Source of the DNA: Alienimonas californiensis | Lineage (GTDB): Bacteria; Planctomycetota; Planctomycetia; Planctomycetales; Planctomycetaceae | DNA: 64,000 nt | Assembly (NCBI RefSeq): GCF_007743815.1 | Contig: NZ_CP036265.1 | Coordinates: forward strand, 3,552,823 to 3,616,822 | Direction: 5' to 3' | Shown: positions 21,923 through 63,552 of the stretch, piece after piece | Position numbering within the stretch: the stretch's first letter is position 1 | Layout of the letters: each line of letters begins with the position of its first letter | Notes under the pieces: generated by a model | Database searches by the model: none | What the model was told of the DNA's origin: nothing | Seen by the model: only the letters and a program-made list of their open reading frames with translations | Made by a program: the position numbers and the translations under genes

Positions 21923-22073
21923 GCTTCTGCTCTGCCGGGGGGGGGTGGTGGAACGGGAACACCCCATTGTCGCCCGGAAGAGCGCCTGCGCAACCGGGCG
22001 GGGCTGTCGGCGGGGCCCGCGAGGTCTTGGCTGTGGTCCGGTACCGGCGCCCCGACCCCGCACCTGCCACGGG

Positions 22074-22811: not shown

Positions 22812-22825
22812 TGTTTCGCGAAACA
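22812..22825. promoter_or_regulatory. 14-bp perfect palindrome upstream of second regulator
   Basis: TGTTTCGCGAAACA, self-complementary, 34 bases before the GTG at 22859 and 58 before the ATG at 22883 of the regulator gene. The same 14 bases recur inside a 16-bp palindrome at 59587-59602, and a one-mismatch form (TGTTGCGCGAAACA) occurs at 57392-57405, both in the second mobile module. It is a good candidate binding site of the regulator encoded just downstream. Confidence 0.5.
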
Positions 22826-22882
22826 TAACGTGAATCCCGATGGCAGTGCGACGGCGGGGTGAGGCGCCGTAGGTTGCCTCAC

Positions 22883-31892: not shown

Positions 31893-31952
31893 CCCCCGGG
31901 CGACGCTTCCTACGCTATCCCTTAAACAACCTCCTCACGAGCAGCATCCAAG

Positions 31953-40576: not shown

Positions 40577-43500
40577 CTACGGGGCCGGCCGGTCTTGGAG
40601 CCCGTCCCACAGGCCCGCCGCGCGGAGATGTTGGAGGACGCCGAGCGTGGGCGGGGGCCTATGTTTGAACTCGACGCCTCCTTCGGTCTTCTCGAACTGA
40701 TAGATCAGCACGTGCACGGACCGGTCGCCGTGCCGCTCGTCTGCCAAGCCGGGCGGCAGACGGCTGCCCCCGAGTTGGGCCCACCCGGAAGTAAGGTCGA
40801 ACGTTGGCGTCGCAACGCCCGGGTCCGGCCGGCGGTCCGGCGTGACGGCGATCAGGAACACGCGGAAGTGTCCCGTCGGGCCGTGCAGGATTCGGGCAAA
40901 CCAGTCGCGCACCCGCAGGCGGGACAGCGGCAGCCATTCTGTGTTCCAACGGTCGGGCGGCGGCGACGGGCGGCCCGTCTCCGGGTCGAATCGCTCAATT
41001 TGCGTGACGATCAGGAAACCGTCTGGTATGCCGATCACGGCTCGCTGCTCGTAGCCGCGTCCGTCCAGCAGGAGACCGATCCGATTAGCAAACTCCTGCA
41101 TCGTCGCCGTGGGCGCCCCGAGGCCGGTCCCGGTCAGGGTCTTCAGTAGCGACCAGGCCGGCGGCGGCCATGCCAGTTCGCCCGATCCGTGCGCGTACCC
41201 CGCATGGTTAGTAGTAGGCCAAGGGGTAAGGGCGAAAGAAATCGCTTCCAAGGCCGAGGCACGTACCCCCGCGTCCGGCGCCGACGCCGCCTCCGCCGCG
41301 AATCGGGCTGCGGTCAAGCTGCGGGACGCGTCCGCGAACGCCTTGAGCGTCTTCACGGCTCGCGCTCGATCTTCAGAGGGTTCGTCCACTCGAAGAAGTT
41401 GCAGCAAGGTTCCCTTCAGTTGGGGCGGCAGATCGCGTTCGGAATTGGAATAGGCATAGGCCACGACGATCTCCGCAGCGTCAGGGGCACTCAGCACACT
41501 CGTGGCGACCCGTCCGTCCATCGGGTCGAGAAGGAGAATCGCCGTCGCCAATGCTCGACGCGTGGCGCCGTCGAGGTTCTCCCGATCGAACGCCGCCCGC
41601 AGTTCCGGCAGCCGCCGCGGTTCGACGTCGGAAGGAATCCGTTGGGCGAGGACGCCCGTCGTCGTCGCGTCCGCATCGTTCAGACGCTCGAACAGGAGGT
41701 CAGTGGGCAGACCCGGCAGCCGAACCCATTGCCGAAGCGCCTCGGCGCGGACGCTCGCATCCGGGTCGTTCAATAGGCTGCGGACCGCGGCCTCGGGATC
41801 GGCGACGAGATCCGAACGGACCCCGACCGCTCGCGCCGCCTGCCGCCGCACCGCTGGGTCAGGATGATTGAACTGGGCGCGAACTTCCCGGCCCAGCGCT
41901 TCTCCGGGGAAGTGCCCCTCGGCCAAGTTGGCGAGGAGATCGACCCGCACCTCCGCCGTCTCGGCGATTAGAGCCCGGCGCACGGTTGGAACGAGCGCCG
42001 CCCCGGGCGGGACGTCATCGGGATTCCTGAACATTCCGAACGCATCCTGCGGCGGGAGCGCCTCGGCCGATAGCATTCGGATTGTCGGCGAACGGCTCGT
42101 CAACGCCCGTCCGAGCGTCTCTGCCGCCCGTGAATTTGCCGGGTCGATTTGAAGAATCGCGGCGGCCGGGAGCGCCGCTTCGGCTAGCCCCCCGGCCGCG
42201 GCGAGGCGGGCGTTGAGAACGGGGAGCGCGGACTCCGCGGACGGGCCGAACCGGGCGAGACTTTCGGTGGCCAGATCAGCGACGATCGGATCCGGCGAAG
42301 CAATCATACGGGTGAGCGACTCGATTAAGCGTTCCCGCTTTTTGTCGCTAAGCTCTCGCGAAGGCTGTTGACTCGCCGTGGCGCCGATAATCTCGGCGAC
42401 CGCCAGTCTGATCTCTCCGGAGTCGCTGTTCTCCGATCCGTCCGTCAGCAGCGAAGCCAATGGCTCCGCCAAGCTCCATGAGGGGCTTTGGAGGAGAGCC
42501 TCCCGAGCAACGGCTCGCCGACGCCGATCGCGGAGTCGCTCGCGGAGGACGGGGGCCGCCGCGTCGGGAGCACGCCGATTCAGCACGTCGAGGATCGCAC
42601 CGGCTGTGACTGCCGAGTCGGTTGTGGCAAGGGTTGACGTCAGCAGTTCGAGAATTTGCGGAGTCGGCTCGAATCTGTCGAACGCTGAAGCCGCGCTGGC
42701 GGCGAGCGGCGGATCGCTCGCTCGCAGTGCCCTGCCAAGTGGGTCGACGGCCTTGGCCGGCAGGCTAACCGAACTGGCCAAGGCGTCCGCGGCCGCCCGG
42801 CGTACGCGCACTTCGCGGTCGTCTAGCCCTGCGAGGACTGCGTCGAGATCGCCCGCACTCATCCTTGGTCCACCCAATGCCGCGATCGCCGCGAGTCGCA
42901 CGTTGGGGTCAGCGTCGCGAGTCGCCTCGAACAACCTCTGCCGTAATCGTTCGGCGAATCCAGTCGGCGATTCCTCCATGCCCGCCGTTCGGTTCAGGAG
43001 AGCTCCCGCGGCCGCGATCGCCGCGAGTCGCACGTTGGGGTCAGCGTCGCGAGTCGCCTCGAACAACCTCTGCCGTAATCGTTCGGCGAATCCAGTCGGC
43101 GATTCCTCCATGCCCGCCGTTCGGTTCAGGAGAGCTCCCGCGGCCGCGATCGCCGCGAGTCGCACGTTGGGGTCAGCGTCGCGAGTCGCCTCGAACAACC
43201 TCTGCCGTAATCGTTCGGCGAATCCAGTCGGCGATTCCTCCATGCCCGCCGTTCGGTTCAGGAGAGCTCCCGCGGCCGCGATCGCCGCGAGTCGCACGTT
43301 GGGGTCAGCGTCGCGAGTCGCCTCGAACAACCTCTGCCGTAATCGTTCGGCGAATCCAGTCGGCGATTCCTCCAAGCCCGCCGTTCGGTTCAGGAGAGCT
43401 CCCGCGGCCGCGATCGCCGCGAGTCGCACCCGCGGGTCGTCGTCTTGGAATGCCGCCTCGACGGGGGCTGCGACGGCTGCGAGTGCCACCGCCTGCTCGT

Positions 43501-43579
43501 CCTGCGGGGGCGGCTGGACGAATGCTGCGGTGAGGTACCCCAACCACAAGAACCCGGCCAAACAAAATGGAGCCAGCAT
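40577..43579 (-). CDS. Exported HEAT-repeat protein with C-terminal domain
   Basis: 1000-residue protein with an N-terminal hydrophobic signal (MLAPFCLAGFLWLGYLTAAFV). Residues about 40-720 are HEAT-like helical repeats (DxxPxVRxAAxxALG pattern). The first part contains four almost identical 44-residue units (DADPNVRLAAIAAAGALLNR ... RLFEATR), identical also at DNA level. The final 200 residues form a separate domain starting near SLLKTLTGTGLGAPTATMQEF and containing GYEQRAVIGIPDGFLIVTQIERFD and VHVLIYQFEKTEGG. HEAT repeats usually bind proteins, and the C-terminal domain is unrecognised but resembles proteins found near bacterial caspase genes. It is followed by an IS remnant and the cytochrome gene. 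Confidence 0.85.
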   Translation of the reverse strand: MLAPFCLAGFLWLGYLTAAFVQPPPQDEQAVALAAVAAPVEAAFQDDDPRVRLAAIAAAGALLNRTAGLEESPTGFAERLRQRLFEATRDADPNVRLAAIAAAGALLNRTAGMEESPTGFAERLRQRLFEATRDADPNVRLAAIAAAGALLNRTAGMEESPTGFAERLRQRLFEATRDADPNVRLAAIAAAGALLNRTAGMEESPTGFAERLRQRLFEATRDADPNVRLAAIAALGGPRMSAGDLDAVLAGLDDREVRVRRAAADALASSVSLPAKAVDPLGRALRASDPPLAASAASAFDRFEPTPQILELLTSTLATTDSAVTAGAILDVLNRRAPDAAAPVLRERLRDRRRRAVAREALLQSPSWSLAEPLASLLTDGSENSDSGEIRLAVAEIIGATASQQPSRELSDKKRERLIESLTRMIASPDPIVADLATESLARFGPSAESALPVLNARLAAAGGLAEAALPAAAILQIDPANSRAAETLGRALTSRSPTIRMLSAEALPPQDAFGMFRNPDDVPPGAALVPTVRRALIAETAEVRVDLLANLAEGHFPGEALGREVRAQFNHPDPAVRRQAARAVGVRSDLVADPEAAVRSLLNDPDASVRAEALRQWVRLPGLPTDLLFERLNDADATTTGVLAQRIPSDVEPRRLPELRAAFDRENLDGATRRALATAILLLDPMDGRVATSVLSAPDAAEIVVAYAYSNSERDLPPQLKGTLLQLLRVDEPSEDRARAVKTLKAFADASRSLTAARFAAEAASAPDAGVRASALEAISFALTPWPTTNHAGYAHGSGELAWPPPAWSLLKTLTGTGLGAPTATMQEFANRIGLLLDGRGYEQRAVIGIPDGFLIVTQIERFDPETGRPSPPPDRWNTEWLPLSRLRVRDWFARILHGPTGHFRVFLIAVTPDRRPDPGVATPTFDLTSGWAQLGGSRLPPGLADERHGDRSVHVLIYQFEKTEGGVEFKHRPPPTLGVLQHLRAAGLWDGLQDRPAP
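42879..43430. repeat. 132-bp tandem repeat inside the HEAT-repeat gene
   Basis: The word GCCGCGATCGCCGCG begins at 42879, 43011, 43143, 43275 and 43407, an exact 132-bp period. Four full units plus a partial fifth are present, with only scattered differences (for example a Met/Leu change near the right end). 132 is divisible by 3, so copy-number change keeps the frame and adds or removes one 44-residue HEAT unit. Confidence 0.95.
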
Positions 43580-45055: not shown

Positions 45056-45580
45056 TTACCAATTTCCCAGAGTTTGCTCGCGCAGCGGTACCCCCAACAG
45101 CGTCAGCCTCACCAGATCGCCGAGGCCGGATTCCCGGTTGCCGCACGAGTGGCCTACCTGCCGGTTCGGGCCGGCCATTGCCAGCAACCTGATCGAGTAA
45201 CGCCGACGCAGTGCAGTTCGCAACAGTCCGCCGCCGCGGCACCAACCGGACTTCCCGTGGTCGAGGCTCAGCAAATGCTGCCGCTCTGCTGTTGCCAGCA
45301 GCAACGGGAGCGCCGTCGCGAGATTGAGGAGGACGTGCTCCTGTTCGACCTGCCGGGCCCGCCCCGGTTCCAGCAGTTCCAACTCGAACCCGGACACCGC
45401 AACGCTCTTCAGCAGGAACACAGTGGTCTGGACGGGTAGGACTGACCGGCCGACGGTGAAGGCGATCAGCCGGAGGTGCACGGCGTCAATCCGCTGATAC
45501 TCCTTCAGTCGGCCGGAGAGAATGCCGGCTACCAGTGGGAAGGCTCCCGCGTAATCACGCTCGGACCACTCGCCTGCGGA
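45056..45580 (-). pseudogene. Degenerate relative of the 24519-25079 membrane protein
   Basis: An open frame at 45056-45481 continues in the same register upstream to about 45580. It contains RIDAVHLRLIAFTVG, SGFELELLEPGRARQVEQEH, LPLLLATAERQHLLSLDHGK and DLVRLTLLG, aligning in order with RIDAVHLGLIALAVG, SGFKLELLERVRAEQIKQEN, PPQAEREHLLNLDRG and EFVRLTPLG of the protein at 24519-25079. No good start codon precedes the first membrane helix and the C-terminal wing is shortened, so it is probably a decaying copy, though a shortened product from GTG 45481 cannot be excluded. Confidence 0.55.
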
Positions 45581-52120: not shown

Positions 52121-53338
52121 TCAGGCACTCGGCGGCGCCTGGACAAGACCTAGACCCACATCAGCCGGCTGGTATCTAGGGTCGAGCGATGCGGTTGTAG
52201 CTGACCCAGCCAGTTTCGTTTCTAATGTAAATGGGGTGAGCGTACGCTGGCGACGCAGCCACTGCGCCCACAGTGCCGCTACACCGGCGACGTGCGGGGC
52301 GGCCATGCTGGTGCCGTTGAACGCGACCAAGCCGGCTGAGTTCGCCTGTGCCGAGAGGACGTTCACGCCCGGCGCGGCGACCATCGCACCGGAGTTGGAA
52401 AAGCGTGCGGGGACGTACCCGCCGTCTCCCTGTCCGAGCGCCGCCACGGACAGGATTCCGTCGGTAGCCGCAGGGAGGCCGACGGCGATGCTCCAATCCG
52501 GGTTCTGGAACTGTCGGTTCTCGTTTCCTGCCGCCGCGACGATGATGCTCGTGCCGCCGAACTCGTGCCTTGCCTTCACGAAGCTGACGAGCCCCTCGTA
52601 CACGCCGATGGTCGTGCGGAAACCTTCTAACGCGATGCTCGTCGCCAAGTCAGTCGGTATTCCGCTTTGATTTACGAGCCGGTCGACGTAGCCGGGAAAG
52701 TCGATCCCGAGGGACATCGAAATGACCGTTGCGCCGTTCTTGACGGCCCACTCGATGGCTTCGAGGGACCAGAGGGTGTTGCCCGATCCATCGTTGCCCA
52801 GCACTTTGCCGATGAGGGCGCGTTGGACGCCACGCGCCACGCCAATGCGGATTCCACTCACGTCGCGGCCGAAGATTGTTCCCGCGCAGTGTGTGCCGTG
52901 GCCGTTCACGTCGCCGTTGCCGTCCCCGGTGAAGTCTTGCTCGACGATGTCCACGCCGGCGAACGCCGGATGGTTCCTGTCGATGCCCGTATCAAGTACG
53001 GCGACGGTGACCCCCTCGCCGGTCAGCTGCGAGCCGTCGGCCCCCACGGCCTGCACGCCCCAAGTCACGTTGCCGAGGGTCGCTTCAGGTGGCGTGCCGT
53101 CGACGTCCAAGGGCGCGATGAGCCGCGTCGGCATCTGCGGCGCGATTGCAACAACGTCGTTCTGCTGTCGGAGCTCGGCGACGCGATTCGAGTCCAGATC
53201 GTCCGCCTCGATCCGCGGGTCTGCGGCGAACGGGCCGCCCCCGATCAACCCGCCGCGAACGCCGGTGCCGAGCGGCCCCGTGAACGGGCCTGTCGCCGCA
53301 GTGCCGCCGGCACGGAGGATGACGTATTTCTGCTTCAT
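52121..53338 (-). CDS. S8 (subtilisin-like) serine peptidase with I9-like prodomain
   Basis: 405 residues from ATG 53338 (GTG 53350 is an alternative). The N-terminal 85 residues read as an I9-type inhibitor prodomain (KYVILRAGG ... VAELRQQNDVVAIAPQMP) without a signal peptide, so a cytoplasmic zymogen is likely. The catalytic residues are Asp116 (AVLDTGIDRNHP), His147 (NGHGTHCAG), Asn272 (AAAGNEN) and Ser344 (FNGTSMAAPHVAG), all intact. The short C-terminus ends soon after the last helix. It is the fourth gene of the TIR-caspase-SLOG series, 32 bases after the SLOG-like gene. Activation by removal of the prodomain, possibly by the caspase, is a testable idea. Confidence 0.92.
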   Translation of the reverse strand: MKQKYVILRAGGTAATGPFTGPLGTGVRGGLIGGGPFAADPRIEADDLDSNRVAELRQQNDVVAIAPQMPTRLIAPLDVDGTPPEATLGNVTWGVQAVGADGSQLTGEGVTVAVLDTGIDRNHPAFAGVDIVEQDFTGDGNGDVNGHGTHCAGTIFGRDVSGIRIGVARGVQRALIGKVLGNDGSGNTLWSLEAIEWAVKNGATVISMSLGIDFPGYVDRLVNQSGIPTDLATSIALEGFRTTIGVYEGLVSFVKARHEFGGTSIIVAAAGNENRQFQNPDWSIAVGLPAATDGILSVAALGQGDGGYVPARFSNSGAMVAAPGVNVLSAQANSAGLVAFNGTSMAAPHVAGVAALWAQWLRRQRTLTPFTLETKLAGSATTASLDPRYQPADVGLGLVQAPPSA

Positions 53339-53382
53339 AATGTTGCCCACAGTCTGAGCGGGGGTTTAGATCGACGTCGCCT

Positions 53383-53868
53383 TCATCGACCGTGTGACTT
53401 CACTGTCCGATCGAGCGGGTTGATATGGACGAGGGGTACCCCGGACTCTATGGCGAATGCAACGATGTCCGCCGTACCACCCTTGCCCCTCGCCGGGAGT
53501 CCGTCCCAGACGGCAAGCATCCTGTCGGCGAGGTCAACAATTCGCTTCCCGGCCGCCAAATAGGCGTCTTCCTCGGTCCCTGCCACGTCGAGAGTTTCCA
53601 CCTTCGCTTGACCCGCGATCGAATTGAAGGTTGGAACATTCTCCGCCGGGAGCGTCCGAGCGATGTCGGCGAATGGCAGAACGGCATGCACGGAACCGTC
53701 CCTCTCTAATACGAGACGTGCGAGCAGTTGATCCGCCCCGATTGCCAGCGACGTCACCGCCACCAAAGGTCGGGCAGCAGCGTCGAGCTCTCGACTCATG
53801 GCTGCCTCTACCCACGGCCAAACCGAGGCGTCGTCTAACTTTTGGTGCCCTGTGATGCCGATTTTCAT
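53383..53868 (-). CDS. SLOG-like nucleotide-binding protein
   Basis: 161-residue Rossmann-like protein of the SLOG/LOG superfamily type. It has the first strand-loop MKIGITGHQKL, TSLAIGADQLLARLV, the strand HAVLPF, and the characteristic late motif WDGLPARGKGGTADIVAFAI with strand VPLVHINP. SLOG domains bind nucleotide-derived ligands; in Thoeris ThsA a SLOG domain senses the signal made by a TIR protein. Here it is a stand-alone protein encoded 41 bases after the caspase gene and 32 bases before the subtilisin gene. A sensor or sponge for the TIR-made signal, or a hydrolase of nucleotides, are the main options. Confidence 0.75.
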   Translation of the reverse strand: MKIGITGHQKLDDASVWPWVEAAMSRELDAAARPLVAVTSLAIGADQLLARLVLERDGSVHAVLPFADIARTLPAENVPTFNSIAGQAKVETLDVAGTEEDAYLAAGKRIVDLADRMLAVWDGLPARGKGGTADIVAFAIESGVPLVHINPLDRTVKSHGR

Positions 53869-53909
53869 ATCTTCTCGATAAGAATCGAGGGCTACTCGAT
53901 TTTCGCCAC

Positions 53910-54893
53910 TCAGACTCGTTTGAGTTCAGCGAGACGTCTGTAATGTTCGCCGAGGGCAGTGAGGCGGACCGGCTTGCTTTCCATACATGCGTCCCAAAGA
54001 TTGGCGACGCCGACCGGTACAAGGAGCGCCGCACGGTTGTATTTTCTCAGCACAAGCAGCTTTTCGACGTTGGCGGGGTCGGCGGCCGGCATCATCTCGG
54101 TCCTCCCGTCGTCCCGCGGTTCGAAAGAGGGGTCAAGCTGATATTCCGAACCGCGGGATGGAAAGAACTCGAGCATGCGGCGGATCTCTTCTACGGTGAC
54201 GACTGGCTCCACACGTCGCAGCGACACAAAGCTCTGCACGTTCGTCTTGAAGACGGGGCGCTGCTCGAGGAAGCTTAACGACTGATCGACGTGTGCGTAT
54301 ACGCTACCCGGCGTGATCTCCCCGAGAATGTTTGCCGCCGCTCCGCTCAGGGCGTCGACGAGTAGCGACGTGAACACTCCGCCCATACCGCTTTCATGTG
54401 CATACTGATCCTGTGATGACGCCGTCATAATCGTCAACCCCTCAGACAGGACAGAGTTTTGGCCGACGTGCGGCACAACGCCGGCCGCACCGGAGTGGCA
54501 GCTGTCGAGCAGTATGACTCGATTACGGATCTTCGACTCATTCGCCATCACTAACAAGTCTGACAGCGAAAGGCCTTGGTCGCCTCGGCTGCATTCGCTC
54601 GTGAGCAAATAGCCGCCTGTACGTTCAACGTGCCCATGTCCGGCGAAATAGAAAAGGGCAATGTCGCTGTTGCTTTGAAAAAGTCTCTCTACCAGATTCC
54701 TGAGATCGCCACTGTTGACTCCTTCGCCTGTCGTGCTGGCGGTACGCAGTTCGACCTGAAAGTTCGCACTTCCGTCGGCATGGCTGTACAACAACTGCTG
54801 AATAGCGTGCGCGTCACTGACGGCGCCGTGGAGTCTGGGGAATGGATGGCCGTAATGATCGATACCCACTACGAGTGCTGACCGCATGCTCAC
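53910..54893 (-). CDS. Caspase-domain protease paired with TIR-like protein
   Basis: 327 residues from GTG 54893 (ATG 54887 also possible). The caspase domain has ALVVGIDHYGHPFPRLHGAV, His86 in FYFAGHGHVE and Cys132 in LLDSCHSGAAG, followed by LTIMTASSQDQYAHES and a GVFTSLLVDALSG small-subunit-like part. Residues after about 230 form a separate C-terminal region (EEIRRMLEFFPSRGSEYQLD ... NVEKLLVLRKYNRAALLVPV) ending in helices. It could be the ligand-binding or substrate-recognition part. The gene starts 12 bases after the stop of the TIR-like gene. TIR plus caspase is the core of type IV Thoeris. Confidence 0.9.
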   Translation of the reverse strand: MSMRSALVVGIDHYGHPFPRLHGAVSDAHAIQQLLYSHADGSANFQVELRTASTTGEGVNSGDLRNLVERLFQSNSDIALFYFAGHGHVERTGGYLLTSECSRGDQGLSLSDLLVMANESKIRNRVILLDSCHSGAAGVVPHVGQNSVLSEGLTIMTASSQDQYAHESGMGGVFTSLLVDALSGAAANILGEITPGSVYAHVDQSLSFLEQRPVFKTNVQSFVSLRRVEPVVTVEEIRRMLEFFPSRGSEYQLDPSFEPRDDGRTEMMPAADPANVEKLLVLRKYNRAALLVPVGVANLWDACMESKPVRLTALGEHYRRLAELKRV

Positions 54894-55530: not shown

Positions 55531-55746
55531 CCATAGGGGCTGTACTTTTGGAGAGGCCGGGCTGATCGCCCCATCGAGGCGGTTCATGCTGCTCACCACA
55601 GTCGGCCGCGTCAAGGCGACACGGAACCCCTCGCCGGGATCGCAGTCGGTCGCGGGCTGCGAATGGCCAATCTTCGGCCGCGACGGATCGACACTCTAAA
55701 GTAGACGCTGCTCTCCGGTAGCCTGGTAGTTAAAGAGAGAACTCCG

Positions 55747-55768
55747 CCCCGCCCGAACCCGGGCGGGG
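55747..55768. terminator. GC-rich hairpin
   Basis: CCCCGCCC (55747-55754) pairs with GGGCGGGG (55761-55768). It lies 30-50 bases beyond the stop of the pseudogene fragment at 55797 in the minus direction, the same arrangement as the hairpin after the intact gene at 56889. Confidence 0.45.
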
Positions 55769-55796
55769 CAGGATCCAAGACAGTCGCAGGTTGAGA

Positions 55797-55995
55797 TCAG
55801 GTCCGGGCACGTTCCTTCAACCCGTCGTTCGCCTCGCTCGCCTGCCGGCGGGACAGTTCCTCGGCCGTGGTCAGCCCGAACCGTCGCCGCGGTTCCTCCG
55901 TCAGTTCCACGAGGGCCCGGTGACTGAAGGCGTGCAGCGCCCGCACCTGCTTTTCCGTGCAGGGCAGCGAGCCGCGGCCGTTGGAAGGCGAGCCG
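55797..55995 (-). pseudogene. Duplicated C-terminal fragment of the 56889-57377 gene
   Basis: Leftward frame NGRGSLPCTEKQVRALHAFS, LTTAEELSRRQASEANDGLK, ending at TGA 55797-55799. It aligns with NGRGGLPCTEKQVRALHAFS and VTTAEDLSRRQASEAIDRFK of the intact protein 1 kb to the right. A TAG lies in frame shortly upstream and there is no start. The copy shows that this part of the module was duplicated, together with the iteron-like cassette. Confidence 0.7.
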
Positions 55996-56179
55996 GGTCG
56001 CCGGGGCTAAACCGGCGGTCGCCCCGCAGCGCCCGACCGGCAATCCGCCCCCGCACCGTCAGCACGCACGCGAGACCGTCGACCGGCGGGAGTTCGCCGG
56101 TCTCCAGTCGGCCGGCCTCTGCCCGTCCGGAAGCGTCGCGGGGCGTCCTTCGGCAGCCCCGCGGGTCGCCGTTTCGCCC

Positions 56180-56355
56180 GTTCCGCCCCGTTCCGCCCCG
56201 TTCCGCCAGATTGAACGCCGCCGGAACAACCTAACCTATTGCCTCACAGCGTCTTACCTCTTCCTGTTCCACTGTTCCGTCTTTCTGAAGGGATAGATAG
56301 TAGTAGACGGAAACTCACGTGAGGGGGTGTTCTCCCTCGCCTGGAACGGCGGAAC
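56180..56355. repeat. Iteron-like cassette C (GTTCC/GGAAC words)
   Basis: GTTCC at 56180, 56190 and 56200; TGAAC/GGAAC at 56212 and 56223 (spacing 11); GTTCC at 56266 and 56274 (spacing 8); GGAAC at 56343 and 56351 (spacing 8). TTTCTGAA follows the third pair as in cassettes A and B, and the facing third and fourth pairs are 77 bases apart (79 in A, 78 in B). The geometry is that of A and B but the word has changed from TTCAC to GTTCC. Confidence 0.6.
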
Positions 56356-56375
56356 GCGTTCCCGATGCGGCGGCG

Positions 56376-56460
56376 CCCGACCGGAAGAATCCCGCCGGCC
56401 TCGAGGAAGCGTGCTTCCGCCTTTCCACAAACACCCGGGGCGGCCCGAGGCCGCCCCGGC
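56376..56460 (+). repeat. Two-hairpin structured repeat, copy 2
   Basis: Begins GCCCGACCGGAAGAATCCCG and contains hairpin 1 GGAAGC-GT-GCTTCC, the linker CGCCTTTCCACAAACAC, and hairpin 2 CGGGGCGGCC-CGA-GGCCGCCCCGG. It matches the copy at 22074-22166 in order and in the linker, while the arms of hairpin 2 differ but remain complementary, a sign that the structure is conserved. It lies between cassettes C and B. Confidence 0.55.
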
Positions 56461-56537
56461 CCGTGCGGTTTTGCGTCTCGACCTGCTTCACCGTCACGCG
56501 GACCCTGGCACGGCCCGCCCGTCGCGGCGGGTCGTTC

Positions 56538-56711
56538 TTCACGCCTTCACGCCTCGGCCCCGCCCGCGTGAAGCCGATGTGAAGCCATTCGCACAAGCCA
56601 GACAGGCGGAAGTAGCCCTCTTCACACTTTCACACCATTTCTGAATGAAGAAGAGATAAAGAGGGATCCTTCTCTCTGCTCTCTTCCCCGGTGTGACCGT
56701 GAAACTGTGAA
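56538..56711. repeat. Iteron-like cassette B (TTCAC/GTGAA words)
   Basis: TTCAC at 56538 and 56546; GTGAA at 56568 and 56579; TTCAC at 56621 and 56629; GTGAA at 56699 and 56707. Spacings 8, 11, 8, 8 are the same as in cassette A. The distances from the first to the second pair (30) and to the third pair (83) are also identical, and the segment CACCATTTCTGAAT is shared. The cassettes are 35 kb apart in different modules. Confidence 0.6.
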
Positions 56712-56827
56712 ACCGCCCCGCCGCCCGCCGTGGGAACCGGCCAGACGGCGGGACTCGCTCTCGGTCCGGCGGGCGCCCCTGCCCGATCCCCGGGTTCCAC
56801 AGGCCGCGGCCGCGACCGCTGCGGGCT

Positions 56828-56866
56828 AAAAGTGAAAAGGCCCACCCCGCCCGTTCCGGGGCGGGG
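56828..56866 (-). terminator. Hairpin terminator of the clamp/AAA+ operon
   Basis: Stem CCCCGCCC (56845-56852) with GGGCGGGG (56859-56866). In the minus direction it is followed by CCTTTTCACTTTTAG, giving two T-runs. It is 23 bases beyond the stop of the last operon gene (56889), so it probably ends that transcript. Confidence 0.65.
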
Positions 56867-56888
56867 CGGGGTCGCTCGCGGGCGCGCT

Positions 56889-57377
56889 TCAGGCTTCCGC
56901 CTTCTCCTTGAACCGGTCGATCGCCTCGCTGGCCTGCCGGCGGGATAAGTCCTCCGCGGTGGTGACGCCCAGCCGCCGCAACTCGGCGGCCAAGTCCGCC
57001 CCAGCCCTGCGGCTGAAGGCGTGCAGGGCCCGGACTTGTTTCTCCGTGCAGGGGAGACCCCCGCGACCGTTGCCGGCGTAGCCGTTGTCGTTCGTGCCAT
57101 TGCGGGCGTGGCCGTTGTCGCCGCCGTTTCGCCGCGGGTCCGCTGTCGGCCGCCACCGCTGCTCCTCCACCTCGTTGTGAGGTTCAGGCGTGACGCCCAG
57201 CTCTTCGTCGACGGCGGCCCGCAGCGTCTCGAAGCAGCCGCGGACCTGCCGCCGCAACTTGTCGGAATCCTTCAGCACGTCGGCCGGCAGTTCGATCTCC
57301 ACGTTCACCATCGCCCCGCGGCTGCCGTAATTCGGCAGGCCGATCTTGCGGGACAGGCCCGCGTTCAACTTCAGCAT
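56889..57377 (-). CDS. Hypothetical protein ending the clamp/AAA+ operon
   Basis: 162 residues from ATG 57377, with GGAG six bases upstream. An N-terminal beta-like part (MLKLNAGLSRKIGLPNYGSR; VNVEIELPADVLKD) and a helix (LRRQVRGCFETLRAAVDEEL) are followed by an Asn/Gly-rich linker. A C-terminal helical domain follows (CTEKQVRALHAFSRRAGADL ... TTAEDLSRRQASEAIDRFKE), whose pattern resembles small DNA-repair or replication-protein tails such as the TEKQ...AI...L domain of Rad52/Sak-like proteins. A decayed copy of this last domain lies at 55797-55995. Role in DNA metabolism of the module is inferred. Confidence 0.65.
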   Translation of the reverse strand: MLKLNAGLSRKIGLPNYGSRGAMVNVEIELPADVLKDSDKLRRQVRGCFETLRAAVDEELGVTPEPHNEVEEQRWRPTADPRRNGGDNGHARNGTNDNGYAGNGRGGLPCTEKQVRALHAFSRRAGADLAAELRRLGVTTAEDLSRRQASEAIDRFKEKAEA

Positions 57378-57413
57378 CTGCCTCTCCTTCGTGTTGCGCG
57401 AAACAGGAACCAG

Positions 57414-58943
57414 TCAGGCGACCAGCGAGCCGAGCCGCTTCAGCCCGGCGAGGGCGCTGGTAACGGTGCGGTTGCGGCGTTTCAGCTTGCGGAGGTCCGT
57501 CGCCAGCGATCTGGCTTCCGAGGCCGCGTCGGACAACGTGCTGCCGAGGGCGGAGACCCGCTCCAGCAGGGCGTCGTGGTCCGGCGAGGTGTCCGGGTTC
57601 TCTTCGCCGCGGACGGCGTGGCCGTTGGCGTCGCCGTTCGTGCGGTAGCCGTTCGCGTTCTGGGCGATGCGGTTGCGGGGCATCGTGGGGGCGGTCCTCG
57701 TGGGAGAAGCGGGTTGAGAAGTCCGGCCCTCGCGGACCGCGACGGGCGTCTCAGCGGCTCTGGGTGGAGCCGAGTTCGTGGGTTCATCTGCGGTCAGCCT
57801 CACCGCGTCCTTCGCCGAAACCGGATCGCCGGCGAGCGTGGCGAAGACGATCGTCGTGCTGAGGGTTTCTGTGCCGGCGGCGTCGCACCGCACCGGCTCC
57901 TCAGCGCCGTTCAGCACGATCTCCGTGCAGCCGTTGGACAACGCCCTGCCGACGAACCGGCGGTCGGCGACGCAGATCGCCGTACCGCTGACCTGCGAGG
58001 ACGCCGTGGCCAACTCCACCGGCCTGCCGCCCTCGTCCGCGGCACGAATCAGGAACAGGCCGTCCTTCGCCTCCAGCGTGACTGGGCGGCGGTCGGCGCC
58101 GACTCCCGGGAGTCGGTCCAGCCGGTCGGCGAGGAACGCCGCGTCGGCCCCAGAGAGGCTGACGGAGGCCTTCCCCTCGCCGCCGGGAACCACACGGTCC
58201 AGGTCCGGGAACCGGGCGTCCCGGGCCTCCGGCGTCCACAGCGTCCAGTCGCCGACGGAGAGGACCACGAGCGGAACCTTCGGTCCGTCCGTCACCCTCG
58301 CCACGCGGAGCTCCGCGTCCTTCAGCTGCGAACAGCTCAGGACGTGCGGGGCCGGCAGCAGGACGGGCTGTTCCCAGGGGAAGGAATAGCCCCGGGCGAT
58401 CAGCAGGTGATGACTGTCGGTCGCTTCGATGCGACCGGCGTGCGGGTCCAGCCGCACGCAGCCCAGGGCGTAGCGGGTCGACTCCGCGTCGGTCACGGCC
58501 ACGGCCGACCGCAGCGCCGCGGCGAAGCCGGGGCCGGGGTCATGGAAGCTGCCAACGGCCGGCGGAGCGAACGTCGCCGCCCGGTCGCGGTCCTGCTTTT
58601 CCAGCGAGCCGCGGGCGCTGCGGGGCACGCCCTTCTCGTCCCAGTTGGCGACGACCGCGGCGCCGCCGTTGGCTTCGGCGAGGGAAACGTCGCCGTTCTT
58701 GGCAGCTCCGGCCTCCGCCAGCAGATTGAACGGCAGGACCAATCCGGCAGGCGGACGATCGCCGGGGATGAGCAGGCTGACGCCGCGGCCGTCAGGACCG
58801 ACGGCGGTCAGCCGGGTTCCGCCTTCGGCTCCGGCGTCGATGCGGACCGGCGGCCCGTCGTCGCGGGCTTTGAGCCCGAGGTGTTTCTTCAGCACCGTGC
58901 GGAACGCATGCAGCGTTCGCCGGGGCAGCGTGATCGGGGGCAT
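57414..58943 (-). CDS. Sliding-clamp-like (DnaN-related) protein with coiled-coil tail
   Basis: 509 residues from ATG 58943, with AGAGG five bases upstream. Residues 1-380 have the rhythm of a beta-clamp: RRTLHAFRTVLKKHLG, ALGCVRLDPHAGRIEATDSH followed by HLLIARGY (as in the DnaN LTGVLL...ATDGHRL region), a second domain with SVSLSGADAAFLADRLDRLP, and LNGAEEPVRCDAAG. The end is a disordered Asn-rich linker and a helix (LRKLKRRNRTVTSALAGLKR). Not the host DnaN, whose length is about 370. It may be a module-specific processivity factor or an anti-competitor of the host clamp. Confidence 0.65.
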   Translation of the reverse strand: MPPITLPRRTLHAFRTVLKKHLGLKARDDGPPVRIDAGAEGGTRLTAVGPDGRGVSLLIPGDRPPAGLVLPFNLLAEAGAAKNGDVSLAEANGGAAVVANWDEKGVPRSARGSLEKQDRDRAATFAPPAVGSFHDPGPGFAAALRSAVAVTDAESTRYALGCVRLDPHAGRIEATDSHHLLIARGYSFPWEQPVLLPAPHVLSCSQLKDAELRVARVTDGPKVPLVVLSVGDWTLWTPEARDARFPDLDRVVPGGEGKASVSLSGADAAFLADRLDRLPGVGADRRPVTLEAKDGLFLIRAADEGGRPVELATASSQVSGTAICVADRRFVGRALSNGCTEIVLNGAEEPVRCDAAGTETLSTTIVFATLAGDPVSAKDAVRLTADEPTNSAPPRAAETPVAVREGRTSQPASPTRTAPTMPRNRIAQNANGYRTNGDANGHAVRGEENPDTSPDHDALLERVSALGSTLSDAASEARSLATDLRKLKRRNRTVTSALAGLKRLGSLVA

Positions 58944-59036
58944 GGGGCCCTCTCGTGTTCGGGGATCAGCGGATGAGGGAAAAAGGCCGGCGACGGGGTT
59001 CAGCCCGTCGCCGGTCGTGAAGCCGCCGCCTTCAAA

Positions 59037-59243
59037 TCAGTGAAAGGCGACGCGACCTTTGCCGCAGCGGTGCGGGTTCGTCCGCCGCCGGGCCTGGTGC
59101 TCGTCCCAGTCGATGGGGCCGAGGTCGTCGTCGAAGTGGGTGAACGACGGCGGGCCGTCGATCTGGAAGCCCATCCGGGCGATGGCGCCGACGCTCTCGC
59201 CGGTGACGGCGGCGATGCGGCGGTTCAGTTCGTGCTGGGGCAT
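59037..59243 (-). CDS. Small acidic/basic hypothetical protein
   Basis: 68 residues from ATG 59243, with AGGAG six bases upstream, which decides the start. Sequence MPQHELNRRIAAVTGESVGA is followed by FDDDLGPIDWDEHQARRR. The first half resembles a small HTH-like helical segment, the second is charged. Unknown function. It lies in operon order between two larger genes, and the good ribosome site argues it is translated. Confidence 0.65.
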   Translation of the reverse strand: MPQHELNRRIAAVTGESVGAIARMGFQIDGPPSFTHFDDDLGPIDWDEHQARRRTNPHRCGKGRVAFH

Positions 59244-59341
59244 GGGAAGCTCCTGTTCGTGAAGTGGGAAAAGAAAAGCGACGAGCCGGCGATGAAGCCG
59301 ACCCGCCGCTGGGGGGGTGAAGTCGAAGGTGGTGCCGGGCC

Positions 59342-59602
59342 TCAGCCTGGCGGGTTCAGCAGTTTGCGGATGAGCCAGTCGGCCTCCGCGGTCAATGCCT
59401 CGCTCCGCAGCGGGAACGGCCCCAGTACAGGACCGCCGCTCGGGGAGAGATCCGCGGTCCAGACGCCGCCGTCGGCGGGCTCGACGTGGCTGGCACGCGT
59501 CACGGAGCACGTACCCATCGCGGCGGCGTCGAGGAGTTCGCCGTACAACCCGCGGGCGTTCCCGTCGGAGCCGACGAACAGCTCCTGTGTTTCGCGAAAC
59601 AC
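59342..59602 (-). CDS. Small hypothetical protein (RASHVEP...GPF type)
   Basis: 86 residues from GTG 59602. The sequence VFRETQELFVGSDGNARGLY continues with GTCSVTRASHVEPADGGVWT, ADLSPSGGPVLGPFPLRSEA and LTAEADWLIRKLL. I recall small planctomycete element proteins with this GGPVLGPF...RSEAL pattern, but no function is known. Its 5' part overlaps by about 100 bases with the end of the upstream gene (59500) in another frame. The first 16 bases form a perfect palindrome. An alternative is that a frame change fuses it to the upstream protein. Confidence 0.55.
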   Translation of the reverse strand: MFRETQELFVGSDGNARGLYGELLDAAAMGTCSVTRASHVEPADGGVWTADLSPSGGPVLGPFPLRSEALTAEADWLIRKLLNPPG

Positions 59603-60648
59603 GCTCCTCGGGGAGACCGCAGCACGCGACGGCGGGGGGCGTCGGCGACGAGCGGGTCGAGGGCCTCGGCCACGCCGGTCAGTCCCTCGCGGACCCGCTG
59701 TTGGAGCCAGCCGACGCCGGTGTTCGCCCGCAGGTCCACGGGGTCGACGCCCCGCATCAGTCCTTCGGCCTCCGCCACGACGGCGTCGAGGTCGGGGCTG
59801 CTGTTCACGTTCAGACGGCGGAACCGCTGGAAGAACTCCGTCAGGTTCTCGATCGCCGAATCGCGGAAGACCCGTGGCCCGCCGTTCTCGCCGCCGGTGA
59901 GGCGTTCCCGCAGGTGGTCGACCAGTTGGGCCAACTCCTGAGCGAACGCTTGCTCGGCCAGCTCCACGGCCTGTTCGAACCGCTGCCGCACGCGATCGCA
60001 CTCCTGCTGGTACAGGCGGGGCGAGAGCCGCCGCAGGTAGTCCGGCGGCTCCACCGCGGGCAGGTCCCAGCTCAGCCCGAACAGCGGGGCCAGTGAGCGA
60101 GGGTAGTCAGACGGATCGAACAGATCGCCCAGCCGCTGCCGGGCCAGATCCACGAGGTCGTCCCGGCTTCGATCGACCTCGATCGCGGTCTCGGCGAGTT
60201 CCCGTTGGAATTCGTTCATCCGCCGTTCGAAGGAAGGCAGATCGTCGCGGGGCAACAACCGCACGCCGTTCTCGGGGAACGGCAGCGACGTCGTTTTCCA
60301 GTACGAAACAGCGGCGTGCCGCACCTTCGCGGCCGCCCGGAGGGCGGGGTGATTGGTGTCCAGCAGCTTCTTCGAGGCCGACAACGAACCACTGTCGGCG
60401 TCGAAGGGGCTGGCCGCCTCGTACTTTTGCTCCGGACTGAGGGTTCGCCTCAGCCCCGGCCAACTGACGTGCAGCCGCACCGCGGCGGCGTCCTCACGCA
60501 GCCGTTCGGCGGGGTCCCGTTCGCGGTGATCCCGTTCCTCGTCGAGGATCGTAACCTCCGCGGCGCCGTGGTCGGTCTCGGCGTCCGGCAGGTCCTCGTC
60601 GACTTCATGGGTTCGCCCGCGTCGCGGCGGGCCGATCAACAGCGTCAT
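59500..60648 (-). CDS. Helical protein, DUF3150-like
   Basis: 382 residues from ATG 60648, with GAGGAG five bases upstream. The protein is almost entirely helical and charged: KYEAASPFDADSGSLSASKK, MNEFQRELAETAIEVDRSRD, CDRVRQRFEQAVELAEQAFA and the segment FRDSAIENLTEFFQRFRRLN. The last recalls DUF3150-type proteins encoded beside AAA+ ATPases of phages and plasmids. The last 35 residues overlap the next gene and look out of character, so a shorter natural end or a frame change there is possible. It follows the AAA+ gene by 80 bases. Confidence 0.6.
   Translation of the reverse strand: MTLLIGPPRRGRTHEVDEDLPDAETDHGAAEVTILDEERDHRERDPAERLREDAAAVRLHVSWPGLRRTLSPEQKYEAASPFDADSGSLSASKKLLDTNHPALRAAAKVRHAAVSYWKTTSLPFPENGVRLLPRDDLPSFERRMNEFQRELAETAIEVDRSRDDLVDLARQRLGDLFDPSDYPRSLAPLFGLSWDLPAVEPPDYLRRLSPRLYQQECDRVRQRFEQAVELAEQAFAQELAQLVDHLRERLTGGENGGPRVFRDSAIENLTEFFQRFRRLNVNSSPDLDAVVAEAEGLMRGVDPVDLRANTGVGWLQQRVREGLTGVAEALDPLVADAPRRRVLRSPRGACFAKHRSCSSAPTGTPAGCTANSSTPPRWVRAP
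59587..59602. promoter_or_regulatory. 16-bp perfect palindrome over a start codon
   Basis: GTGTTTCGCGAAACAC is self-complementary and contains the 14 bases TGTTTCGCGAAACA found upstream of the second regulator at 22812-22825. Here it coincides with the first codons of the gene at 59342-59602. A near copy (TGTTGCGCGAAACA) lies at 57392-57405, just upstream of the gene at 56889-57377. Confidence 0.45.
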
Positions 60649-60728
60649 GGCGGCTCCTCTGGGTGTGAAATGAGAAACGCCCCGGCGAAGTGCCGGGGCG
60701 TGTGAAAGTCAGGGCGACGCAGGTCACG

Positions 60729-62315
60729 TCAGTTCAGCGAGTAGCCCCCGCCCGGCGGCCTCCGCTGCGTGTTGCGGCGGGGTCGCGGTTGATCGCCGGA
60801 TTGCTGCCGATCGCGATGCCGGTACGGACCTCCGCCCTCGGCGTCCAAGCACCGACCGCTGGCCCACCGCCGCAGCTTCGCCAGTTGCTCCCTACCGCTC
60901 TCGCTGACCGGAACGACGTAGGAGCCAGCTTCGACCAGGGAGACGCCCAGCAGCGCGCTCAGGCGGCAGCAGGATTCGATCTCCGCCCCGGTCCAGCCCT
61001 CGTCGTCCGCGGGCTCGTCGCCGGCGTCGATCCCGTACTCCGCCCGGTAGCGGTCCCAGATTAACGCACGCTCCTCGGCGGCGGGCAGGTCGAGGAAGAA
61101 CGTCGCGTCGAACCGGCCGGAGCGGGTCAGTTCGGCCGGCAGCCTCGACGCATCGTTGCTGGTCGCCACGGCGAACACGCCCCGCGGGCGATCGGCGAGC
61201 CAACTTAAAAGAGCGCCGAGCATCCGGGTGCCGACGCCGCTGTCCTGCTGCCCGCCGGACGTGCCGGCGAGGGCCTTCTCGACCTCGTCAATAAAAAGCA
61301 CGCAGGGCGACATCGCCTCCACCGTGGCCAGCGCCCGCCTCGTGTTTTCCTCCGACTGACCCACGAGCGAACCCATCAGCCCGCCGATATCCAGCGACAG
61401 GGTGGGCCGACCGACCTCGCTGCCGAGAGCCTTGGCGAAGGCCGATTTGCCGGATCCAGGCGGGCCTAGCAGGAGCACGCCCTTGGGCTCGGCGTGCGGG
61501 TGCAGGTTGGTCAGGGCCGTGCGGCAGAAGGCTTTCAGGGCCTGCATGCCGCCGAGGGAACCGAAGCCGGGACCGTTGCGGCACAGCGTTAGCGAGCCGG
61601 AGCCGGTCAGCTGCTTCGCCTTCAGCTCCCAGAGCGGGTCGGGGTCCAGCTTGCCGTGCCGCACCAGCGACAGGGCGAAGGCGTTCTCGGCTTCCGAGCG
61701 GGTCAGTCCCGCCGCGGCGTCGAGCACCGCCCACATCTCCTCCGGAAGTTCGCCCGGCTCCGTGGCGACGCCCTTCGCCACGCCGTCCAGTTCTTCCCGG
61801 CTGGGAAGCGGGTGATCGAGAACGGCGAAGTCCCGCTTCAACTCCGGCGGCAGGTCGCCGGTCGGCTGAATCAGCACCAAGCAGGTGCGGCGGGTCTTGC
61901 CCGCGGCGAGCGTGCCTCGAATGGCCGCCAGCAGTTCGGCGGACTGGAAGAAGCGGTGGACGTGGACCATCGCTAAGACCGCCGGCGTCTCGCCGTCTCC
62001 GCTCTGCGGCAGGGCCTTCACGGCGGCCAGTGGATCACCGGGCCCCTCTTCGTCGCCTGTCGCCGTCCACGCGGCGAAGGTCCAGTTCCTCTCTTGGCAG
62101 ACTGCGGCGAGGTCGCGAACGGCATCCTCGGGTTCGTCGCTGGTCACCAGCACGCCGGGGAAGGCGGCGGCGATCAGCTCCGCGAACCGCCGCTTCAGGG
62201 TCGGCGGTCGCTCCTCCTCGGGGCTTTCGCCGGGCAGGCGTCGCCCCTCGTCGCGTCGCTCGCCTCGTCGTCTTCGACACCGGCCGGGGTTCTCGCCCGA
62301 CGGTCGTCTGGCCAT
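60729..62315 (-). CDS. AAA+ ATPase, Ycf46/FtsH-like
   Basis: 528 residues from ATG 62315, chosen because AGGAG (62322-62326) stands six bases upstream. The N-terminal 240 residues resemble a degenerate first ATPase domain (LKRRFAELIAAAFPGVLVTS; TCLVLIQPTGDLPPELKRDF), as in Ycf46. The active domain has Walker A GPPGSGKSA (about residue 284), Walker B VLFIDEVEKAL (about 338), sensor-1 VATSND and the arginine finger region TRSGRFD. A small lid domain follows. Together with the DUF2997 and DUF1257 genes upstream it forms the set ycf46-DUF2997-ycf35 known from cyanobacteria, plastids and phages. Confidence 0.85.
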   Translation of the reverse strand: MARRPSGENPGRCRRRRGERRDEGRRLPGESPEEERPPTLKRRFAELIAAAFPGVLVTSDEPEDAVRDLAAVCQERNWTFAAWTATGDEEGPGDPLAAVKALPQSGDGETPAVLAMVHVHRFFQSAELLAAIRGTLAAGKTRRTCLVLIQPTGDLPPELKRDFAVLDHPLPSREELDGVAKGVATEPGELPEEMWAVLDAAAGLTRSEAENAFALSLVRHGKLDPDPLWELKAKQLTGSGSLTLCRNGPGFGSLGGMQALKAFCRTALTNLHPHAEPKGVLLLGPPGSGKSAFAKALGSEVGRPTLSLDIGGLMGSLVGQSEENTRRALATVEAMSPCVLFIDEVEKALAGTSGGQQDSGVGTRMLGALLSWLADRPRGVFAVATSNDASRLPAELTRSGRFDATFFLDLPAAEERALIWDRYRAEYGIDAGDEPADDEGWTGAEIESCCRLSALLGVSLVEAGSYVVPVSESGREQLAKLRRWASGRCLDAEGGGPYRHRDRQQSGDQPRPRRNTQRRPPGGGYSLN

Positions 62316-62367
62316 CGGCATCTCCTGCTGGGGGTGTTTGGGTTGGGAATGCACTCGGCCGCGGAAT

Positions 62368-62562
62368 CTACGCCCGCAGCCGCTCCTGCTCGCTGACCGA
62401 TTCGGTCGCGTGGTATTCGGGCGTCAGCCGCTCGGCGGTCTGGCTGCCGAGGGCGTCCTCGTAGGGCTGGCTGGCGGCCTTGCAGGCGGGGCCGGCGAAG
62501 CCCTTGGTCTCGACGCTGGTCTCGCCCTCCGGCGTGACGGTGATCTCGATGCGGGGGGTCAT
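62368..62562 (-). CDS. DUF2997 family protein
   Basis: 64 residues, the usual length for DUF2997. The pattern IEITVTPEGETSVETKGFAG, PACKAASQPYEDALG has the family's I-x-I-x-PdG-x-x-x-x-T-x-GF-G-x-x-C-x-x-x-t-x-x-x-E-x-x-LG form. Its ATG overlaps the stop of the DUF1257 gene (TGATG), so translation is coupled. In other genomes the pair stands next to an AAA+ ATPase, as here. Biochemical function unknown. Confidence 0.85.
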   Translation of the reverse strand: MTPRIEITVTPEGETSVETKGFAGPACKAASQPYEDALGSQTAERLTPEYHATESVSEQERLRA

Positions 62563-62966
62563 CAGGCGAGTCCTCCGTAGGCGTTCCCGGCGGCGCCGAA
62601 GCCGACGGCCCCGGCGGTGACGGTCAGCCGCACGCCGCCGTCGGGCAGCGGGGTCTCGCTGATCCGGTGCCCGCGGGCCTTCGCCTGCAGCTTGGCGGCT
62701 TCGACCGCGTAGGCCTGCTTCAGGCGGCCGAGGAAGGCGTCGTCGCCCCAGCGGCCGTTGTAGGTATCGCAGCGGACGTTTCCGTCGGTCTGCACCAGCA
62801 CGGGGTAGACGAACCCCGGCGGCCTCACTGCGAGGCCGCTGTGTTCGGCGCCGTCGAAGAACTTGACGGTCTCGTTCCGGGGTTCCGGCAGCTTCAGCCG
62901 GGCGCAGGCGGCGGACAACGCCGCCGGGTCTCTCAGCTTCGTCTCGATCGTGACGACGTGGCTCAT
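62562..62966 (-). CDS. DUF1257 (Ycf35-related) protein
   Basis: 134 residues. MSHVVTIETKLRDPAALSAA, CARLKLPEPRNE, the strand RPPGFVYPVLVQTDGNVRCD, YNGRWGDDAFLGRLKQAYAV and the late strand HRISETPLPDGGVRLTVTA fit DUF1257, the family of plastid Ycf35. AGGA lies nine bases before ATG 62966. It is translationally coupled to the DUF2997 gene and upstream of the AAA+ ATPase. The three probably act together, possibly as an ATPase with two adaptors. Confidence 0.85.
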   Translation of the reverse strand: MSHVVTIETKLRDPAALSAACARLKLPEPRNETVKFFDGAEHSGLAVRPPGFVYPVLVQTDGNVRCDTYNGRWGDDAFLGRLKQAYAVEAAKLQAKARGHRISETPLPDGGVRLTVTAGAVGFGAAGNAYGGLA

Positions 62967-63009
62967 GGGACCGCGTCCTTTCGGGTGAGGGGATGGGAAA
63001 GCCGATCCG

Positions 63010-63327
63010 CTACGGCAGCCGCAGCGGGCGGCGGAGCGGGTCCGGCAGGGGGTTCGTGCGGTTCGCGGGGCCGCTGTTCGGCGGGGGGCCGCGGAATCGG
63101 CCGCCGCGGTCGCGGCGGGGGGCGCGGTTGCGCTGGTGACCGCCGGGATGTTCGTCGTGGTGCGGCGGCCTGGGCGGCGGCTTCACGATCCAAGCTCCCA
63201 AGGCGACCAGCGCGGCCCCGAGGGCCAGCAGCAGGACGGCGGGGAACAGGTCGTTCGCCCACGGACCGGAAGGGGGTACGGGCTCGGCAAAGGCGAGCAG
63301 GGCCGCGAGCGGCGGCGGGTCGGGCAT
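63010..63327 (-). CDS. Small membrane protein with basic tail
   Basis: 105 residues. A single hydrophobic segment (LFPAVLLLALGAALVALGAWIV, about residues 27-48) follows a Pro-rich start, and the rest is a Pro/Arg/His-rich disordered tail. GGAAG precedes ATG 63327. First gene of the minus-strand module as far as visible. Function unknown; low complexity makes the call moderate. Confidence 0.5.
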   Translation of the reverse strand: MPDPPPLAALLAFAEPVPPSGPWANDLFPAVLLLALGAALVALGAWIVKPPPRPPHHDEHPGGHQRNRAPRRDRGGRFRGPPPNSGPANRTNPLPDPLRRPLRLP

Positions 63328-63552
63328 GGGTTCTTCCGACTGGGGAGAGGGGGCCGGCGGGTATTCCGCGGCGTCATCCCACAGTGCAGCGAACCCTCAT
63401 CGGGTTTAGTGCCCCGAAGATCTGGATTCGTCCTCCCGCCGTTCCGATTTCGACGCAGCGGGAAGCGGTTTCGCTTGAATCCGCCCGCCGCCCGCCGCAC
63501 CTTCCGGAGGCGGGTCCACTGACTTCACAATCCTCCGCGACCGCTCTACCGC

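Follow-up and report, generated by a model that had tools for sequence, protein, structure and literature searches.

Three cassettes of short repeated words in a 64,000-nucleotide stretch of the Alienimonas californiensis genome (the window; bases 3552823-3616822 of a single 5,475,215-base contig) are very probably iteron replication origins of the PICI/SaPI kind, read by a cognate helicase, with word and helicase changing together. The cassettes keep one layout while their 5-base word is replaced, and the word differs as a block with the helicase gene between two related islands of this genome. The same layout, with other words, lies just past the Prim-Pol and helicase genes of unrelated elements, around a core that is AT-richer than its surroundings. 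From this arrangement we infer binding of the words, melting, priming and replication, as well as present activity of two of the three cassettes, B and C.

Cassette A (21122-21296; no strand is assigned to any cassette) starts 77 bases past the end of the helicase 1 ORF and carries the word TTCAC (>) and its reverse complement GTGAA (<) at offsets of >0 >8 <30 <41 >83 >91 <162 <170 from its first word. Cassette B (56538-56711) has TTCAC at 56538 and 56546, GTGAA at 56568 and 56579, and inner words at 56621 and 56629 and at 56699 and 56707, its offsets equalling those of A except for <161 <169; an earlier reading of these letters (the sequence-only reading) had claimed that A and B share word and spacing, and the word positions bear this out, B staying within one base of A. 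In cassette C (56180-56355), the words are GTTCC (56180, 56190 and 56200) and GGAAC (56223), followed by inner words at 56266 and 56274 and at 56343 and 56351, which gives offsets of >0 >10 >20 <43 >86 >94 <163 <171 and an extra > at 178. The same reading was right that C keeps the layout with GTTCC in place of TTCAC; however, the outer spacing that it gave as 11 is 10, and what it counted as a second outer "pair" of C consists of one GGAAC.

The motif TTCACN3TTCAC occurs six times in the window, every time within A or B (0.05 expected), and GTTCCN3GTTCC four times against 0.36 expected, two of these in C and the strays at 11575 and 62874. We also performed a strict any-word scan, which requires a 5-mer twice at a spacing of 7-10, its reverse complement twice, 45-104 bases between, and both spacings equal within one. 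Within the window it matches A, B and C alone, where 20 dinucleotide shuffles yielded an average of 0.2 matches each. The spacing limits were chosen after the cassettes had been seen, so that the window is no independent test of the scan, whereas the viral loci described below are. The inverted pairs enclose a core with 48-56% AT in A, B, C and two paralogues, versus 33% for the window. A core sequence following the third pair had likewise been described as conserved. TTTCTGAA does match three times in the window, once each in A, B and C (0.65 expected; 4 of 100 shuffles reach three), but its position reads TTTTTGAA in the paralogue of B and TTTTTTGAA in that of C, and it is missing from a further cassette of the genome, E; we therefore rejected TTTCTGAA as a conserved core.

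Ahead of cassette A lie a bifunctional DNA primase/polymerase (Prim-Pol; 17920-18888, plus strand; PF09250, E 2.2e-27) and helicase 1, the predicted initiator (18958-21045, plus strand), whose translation contains the P-loop GPTNSGKST. Helicase 1 has no Pfam family above the cut-off; it is related to phage primase-helicase families (phrog_21086, 1.5e-22; phrog_35358 'DNA primase', 5.4e-18). Helicase alignment searches found no relative in viral contigs, the window's own alone among 392 genomes of the phylum, and two partial matches in 72,556 plasmid records. The predicted structures are poor (pLDDT 45.6 for the helicase and 48.9 for its C-terminal part), and do not reveal the DNA-binding domain. 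Beside A is a weakly regulator-like minus-strand ORF (phrog_323, E 0.0047), and left of Prim-Pol two small neighboring paralogous stretches (15129-15518 and 16292-16681) share 77% DNA identity.

The genome contains two related islands, each with a Prim-Pol followed by a helicase, and searches within it matched Prim-Pol twice (E up to 0.01) and the helicase 1 family also twice (E up to 1), the second of each lying at 3101-3104 kb in island 2. The Prim-Pols of islands 1 and 2 are 87% identical and the helicases 34%, with no drop in identity between the two helicases towards the C-terminus. Exact patterns run over the whole genome yielded two TTCAC tetrads (A and B) and three GTTCC tetrads (C, its paralogue at 3127967, and cassette E at 3105551), and reversed control patterns yielded none. 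BLAST with cassette B matched A plus a paralogue of B at 3128253, which is 77% identical, has one spacing of 7, and carries partly mutated outer words. Cassette E follows the layout of C (>0 >9 >19 <42 >85 >93 <162 <170 <178), with a core of 47% AT versus 30% for its locus. The TTCAC cassette A thus stands past helicase 1 and the GTTCC cassette E 1.07 kb past helicase 2; no initiator gene adjoins B or C.

Comparison of the two islands (BLASTN with an E limit of 1e-6, counting matches longer than 60 bases) located this difference in one block. Window positions 17484-18863, ending in Prim-Pol, are 89% identical to island 2, and positions 21432-23710 are 78% identical; the intervening block of helicase 1 and cassette A (18863-21432) is without a BLASTN match to the corresponding island 2 block (3102220-3105970). 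Since both flanks match and the block does not, helicase and word changed as one unit. The sequence-only reading had ascribed the change of word to co-evolution with an initiator, which is upheld by the pairing of TTCAC with helicase 1 and GTTCC with helicase 2, by their exchange as a block, and by recurrence of the layout with other words. Its further suggestion, that different words avoid cross-talk between coexisting elements, is compatible with a chromosome that harbors two islands whose helicases differ, yet the module of B and C does the opposite by keeping one site of each kind.

At the left, a tyrosine integrase ORF (10886-12373, minus strand; PF00589, 3.7e-7), which as listed crosses the tRNA, lies beside tRNA-Gln (10946-11016), and this site is the probable left end of island 1; in island 2, a Phage_integrase-family ORF (PF00589, 1.3e-22) lies left of tRNA-Leu. 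The system has a Prim-Pol and a helicase, together with integrase ORFs beside tRNA genes, which places it among the integrative elements that carry an AEP primase. Neither right end was found: the 9.2 kb past the window contain no copy of the tRNA-Gln end, and none of the tRNA-Leu end appeared in a search that reached 3143000. For tRNA-Gln, a 34-bp match (85%) to its end lies 219 kb away and amounts to a hint at most. In the cargo of island 1, a subtilase-like gene is twice paired with a caspase-like (Peptidase_C14) gene (29913-34007 and 52121-54893), and the cargo between modules also includes a 430-base repeat of 69% identity (24617-25046 and 45100-45529). Near-identical tandem repeats with a period of 132 bases (42879-43429; self-BLAST offsets 132, 264, 396) lie inside a 1000-aa ORF (40577-43579, minus strand).

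Relatives of the Prim-Pol occur in five other genomes among 170 of the family (E up to 1e-8) and in five others among 397 of the class (E up to 1e-12); one genome is shared, giving nine in total. The layout follows shortly after the helicase in two of the nine, namely as ACAGGTAGG repeats ~340 bp past a DUF927 helicase in G143 and as GTCCA repeats 134 bp past a DUF5906, D5-like helicase in G002, both with an AT-richer core; across these two genomes and that of the window, the core is AT-richer in eight of eight cassettes. After the Prim-Pol ORF of a third genome, G334 (locus L138), 9-bp GCGACAAAA repeats form several clusters in both orientations, perhaps another way of arranging this type of origin. 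By eye, G321 has direct repeats alone, and nothing clear was seen at the site past the helicase or Prim-Pol in G025, G271 and G341. The remaining two of the nine, G071 and G014, end before the site.

BLASTN with cassette B against 150 family genomes gave, besides the window's own, a single match in G007, a restriction that we attribute to the change of words. The B-like cassette of G007 has lost words and is flanked by an IS110-type transposase on one side and a DDE_5 transposase-like gene on the other (L031 13627-14949, L032 230-1228), and no Prim-Pol was found at E up to 1e-8 in this 360-contig assembly. TTCAC tetrads collected from 57 genome loci and nine viral loci form a mixed set, 10 of the 66 having tblastn similarity to one of 21 helicases or to Prim-Pol, each with the tetrad 3' (in L086 also 5'). 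Many others resemble unrelated intergenic repeats when inspected by eye, such as those of the Flavisolibacter loci (L056, L061, L064 and others), GTGAAC-type inverted repeats with an 8-base period that match the tetrad pattern and in whose vicinity nothing similar to a helicase or Prim-Pol was found. Where a tetrad fell within an ORF (L136:10604; L137:3817 and 5842), we attributed it to chance.

To examine the any-word scan on independent sequence, we applied it to 46 IMG/VR Prim-Pol loci, 42 of which reach 2 kb downstream and four less. The strict scan found 20 clusters versus 0.33 expected (three shuffles per locus); 16 lie in the 128,350 bases that extend 0-3 kb downstream of the Prim-Pol match and four in the other 466,548 (binomial p 4e-8). 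These arrays belong to 15 of the 46 loci, a count in which L155 and L156 (helicases 98% identical) are a non-independent pair, and in the remaining 31 the strict scan found no array within 3 kb downstream. Of the 16 clusters, 14 start 4-180 bases past the stop codon of the last Prim-Pol or helicase ORF and the other two 17-19 bases before it, and core AT is above the locus level in 15 of 16. The words include GCCCA, CGATT, GTGAC, GACAG, GTTGA, GGCAA, TTAGC, TGTGA, TACCC, CCTCA, GTCAA and GGTTA. A relaxed scan gave 22 clusters inside the zone and six outside, in 21 of the 46 loci, against six in one shuffle per locus. Among the four strict-scan clusters outside the zone, those in L145 and L177 were taken as chance; the other two lie in L150.

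Among the viral loci, L146 and L155 have helicases that are 77% identical and words that differ, and L161 and L163 (helicases 83% identical) have a word in common whose orientation is opposite in all four positions, so that the word is no simple function of overall helicase identity. The words of L174 and L178 also differ, and identity between their helicases is 23-27% in the last two blocks versus 38-66% before, a pattern that would suit a word reader in the C-terminal part.

A tblastn search with helicase 1 gave weak partial matches in nine phage records, two of them the same phage, and four were examined. In Bdellovibrio phage phi1422 (JQ177062), the helicase (gp23, annotated as putative primase) is 30.5% identical over 134 residues, and the word GTTAC directly follows gp23 at >0 >9 >19 <34 >97 >105 <195 <203 >266 <281 <291 <300, around a core with 80% AT versus 58% for the stretch. 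This array resembles the cassettes in its related helicase, in the outer spacing of E (>0 >9 >19), in inner pairs 8 apart and in its AT-rich core; it differs in its word, in a core of 83 bp and in having outer sets on both sides, and no origin is among the listed features of the stretch. Synechococcus phage S-H1 has AACGGT at >0 >9 >18 with one inverted copy at <111 directly after the gene, an array that the strict scan misses; two genes further on, it encodes a product annotated as DNA polymerase III beta subunit. Nothing clear was seen directly after the gene in Serratia phage MQ-4 and Pseudomonas phage ZRG1, where tetrads 1.8 and 4.8 kb on were left uncounted.

We propose that the cassettes would work as follows. 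In each, short direct repeats of a 5-base word form two inverted sets (inner pairs 8 apart) on either side of the ~65-bp AT-richer stretch, with an outer set of words ~85 bases upstream. The helicase beside A would bind TTCAC and that beside E GTTCC; oligomers of the helicase would load on both inverted sets, the AT-rich stretch would melt, and Prim-Pol would prime there. Reading of the word by the helicase would explain why the two change jointly, and the layout would stay constant because it is set by oligomer loading. Short repeats read at two sites by a primase-helicase are known from phage P4, at its origin and crr, and the classical iteron plasmid origin consists of direct repeats in a single orientation; the cassettes fall outside the latter class, their sets being inverted.

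The closest published counterpart, and the basis on which iteron origins are the most likely identity of the cassettes, is that of PICI/SaPI elements, in which, according to the available part of the paper (PMC6092414), two iteron sets flank an AT-rich region directly 3' of rep. The cassettes share with this Pri-Rep-ori organization the iterons flanking an AT-rich region and the occurrence together of a primase homologue and an initiator; a position immediately 3' of the initiator gene is seen for A, whereas E stands 1.07 kb away and B and C have no initiator beside them. They differ from what that part describes in that the outer iteron set lies ~85 bp upstream and the spacing is nearly constant across words (the paper shows iteron sequences separately for several elements), in that the primase is a Prim-Pol, and in that a second module has two predicted origins of different specificity and no initiator; the islands are also not classed as PICIs. 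In the accessible portion of a second study (PMC7581432), it is the C-terminal domain of SaPI Rep that recognizes the iterons, and SCCmec Cch2 requires the 5-nt iteron AAGTG, the Cch2 helicase binding its iterons specifically and a polymerase-primase preferring the site. Like the Cch2 origin, the cassettes have 5-nt direct-repeat iterons downstream of a helicase gene; unlike them, that origin has, in the same portion, three iterons in one direct-repeat region and inverted repeats that are unneeded for binding. Kazlauskas 2018 (PMC5862659) describes, in the part available, mobile elements in which AEP primases accompany DUF927, D5 and further helicases, and it suggests that winged-helix domains recognize the origin. 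The earlier proposal of an undescribed class of origin is thus supported as to the origin, since the word follows the helicase, but not as to its being undescribed, the PICI/SaPI organization having been published (PMC6092414, as far as its available part goes). No earlier description of these cassettes was found in the literature searched. The origin type itself is already known and its setting is new: one layout persists while the words change, and both islands have a module that lacks a helicase but carries a predicted origin of each specificity.

That second module, which has no recognized helicase, spans 55725-63391 and has a 77% identical copy in island 2 (3127448-3135100). The copy likewise carries both words (C copy at 3127967, B copy at 3128253), so that the module has one TTCAC and one GTTCC cassette in each island, whichever helicase that island has. 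Between C and B is a segment of ~80 bp (56378-56458) that ends in a terminator-like hairpin, as judged by eye, and to which segments ~0.8 kb beyond both A (22077-22158) and E (3106622-3106703) are 85% identical, a hint that Prim-Pol-side loci were the source from which B and C were copied. All on the minus strand, the module encodes a 162-aa protein of a repeated family (56889-57377), a 509-aa sliding-clamp-like protein (57414-58943) and a 541-aa AAA ATPase (60729-62354; PF00004, 8.3e-26). The 509-aa protein has no Pfam family and weak beta-clamp PDB matches (E 0.014 and worse); it matches phrog_947 'DNA polymerase processivity factor' (6e-9) and also phrog_3007 'RusA-like Holliday junction resolvase' (2.6e-8). 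The 162-aa family recurs at six other loci in the genome (340213, 1486804, 2871352, 3336303, 3443769 and 4145692), with a clamp-like gene before at least the 340213 copy, by eye; as these six have no tetrad within 1.5 kb, the 162-aa gene was rejected as the cassette partner.

In this module, B and C would provide one origin per specificity next to a clamp-like protein and an AAA ATPase, and, with no helicase encoded in it, the module would rely on whichever one is available to fire it in trans. We lean towards B and C being working origins fired in this way. A wider reading, which we put forward tentatively and at somewhat less than even chances, is that the B/C module is a helicase-less passenger with one origin per circulating helicase, copied under either, and that Prim-Pol helicases share one layout in which the 5-base word alone is exchanged.

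Alternatively, B and C may be inactive remnants, the module having gained Prim-Pol-side pieces by recombination and the cassettes having no function, a reading that we consider rather unlikely. It draws support from the lack of a recognized helicase gene in the module, from the gene beside C, which matches residues 97-161 alone of the 162-aa family, and from G007, where a B-like cassette that has lost words sits between transposase-type genes with no Prim-Pol found. However, the inner words of B and C are all intact in the island 2 copy despite 77% module identity, evidence that is biased for C, whose copy was counted by an intact-word search, and not for B, whose copy came by BLAST; moreover, both words are kept in both islands. 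Integron attC sites and transposon ends were dropped on sight, the former for the orientation of the words compared with that in attC, the latter as the cassettes sit within larger homologous blocks.

Other functions were also considered for the words. Operators of a transcription regulator, or helicase autoregulation, would account for short repeated words, which are typical of operators, and the phrog_323 ORF adjoins A; nevertheless, the viral arrays sit at the Prim-Pol or helicase stop codon, B adjoins the 3' end of its facing gene, and symmetric sets around an AT-richer core suit an origin better, which makes this reading improbable. Still less probable, in our estimation, are RNA hairpins, terminators or REP-like palindromes. 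The sets are inverted, a long hairpin can be drawn, and the linkers between words pair at 43 of 63 positions where one in four is expected by chance, but iterons longer than 5 bases would likewise yield paired linkers, and in C and E 1 of 3 linker positions pairs while the words do. In addition, tRNA-Gln is the window's only Rfam match at gathering scores, each arm holds the word twice, the word changes with the helicase, and the AT-richer center spans 50-102 bases. Partition sites are the least likely of all: repeated sites in mobile elements can be centromeres, but the arrays go with Prim-Pol and helicase genes, the word changes with the helicase, and none of the present findings suggests such a site.

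Reading the cassettes as iteron origins turns a visual pattern into a testable rule, in which the layout is fixed, the word is variable, and the word is linked to the adjoining helicase. Among Prim-Pol phages and islands, the any-word scan predicts for some (15 to 21 of the 46 viral loci) where the origin lies and which initiator specificity it has, and the claim in the available part of the PICI paper that this organization is unique among known bacterial replicons would have to be widened (PMC6092414). The natural exchange of helicase and origin between two related islands within one chromosome, together with the two-origin module, offers a ready system for change of initiator specificity. 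If the module is indeed a passenger and the layout is shared among Prim-Pol helicases, the word of a new element would be readable from its sequence and would predict which elements fire each other's origins.
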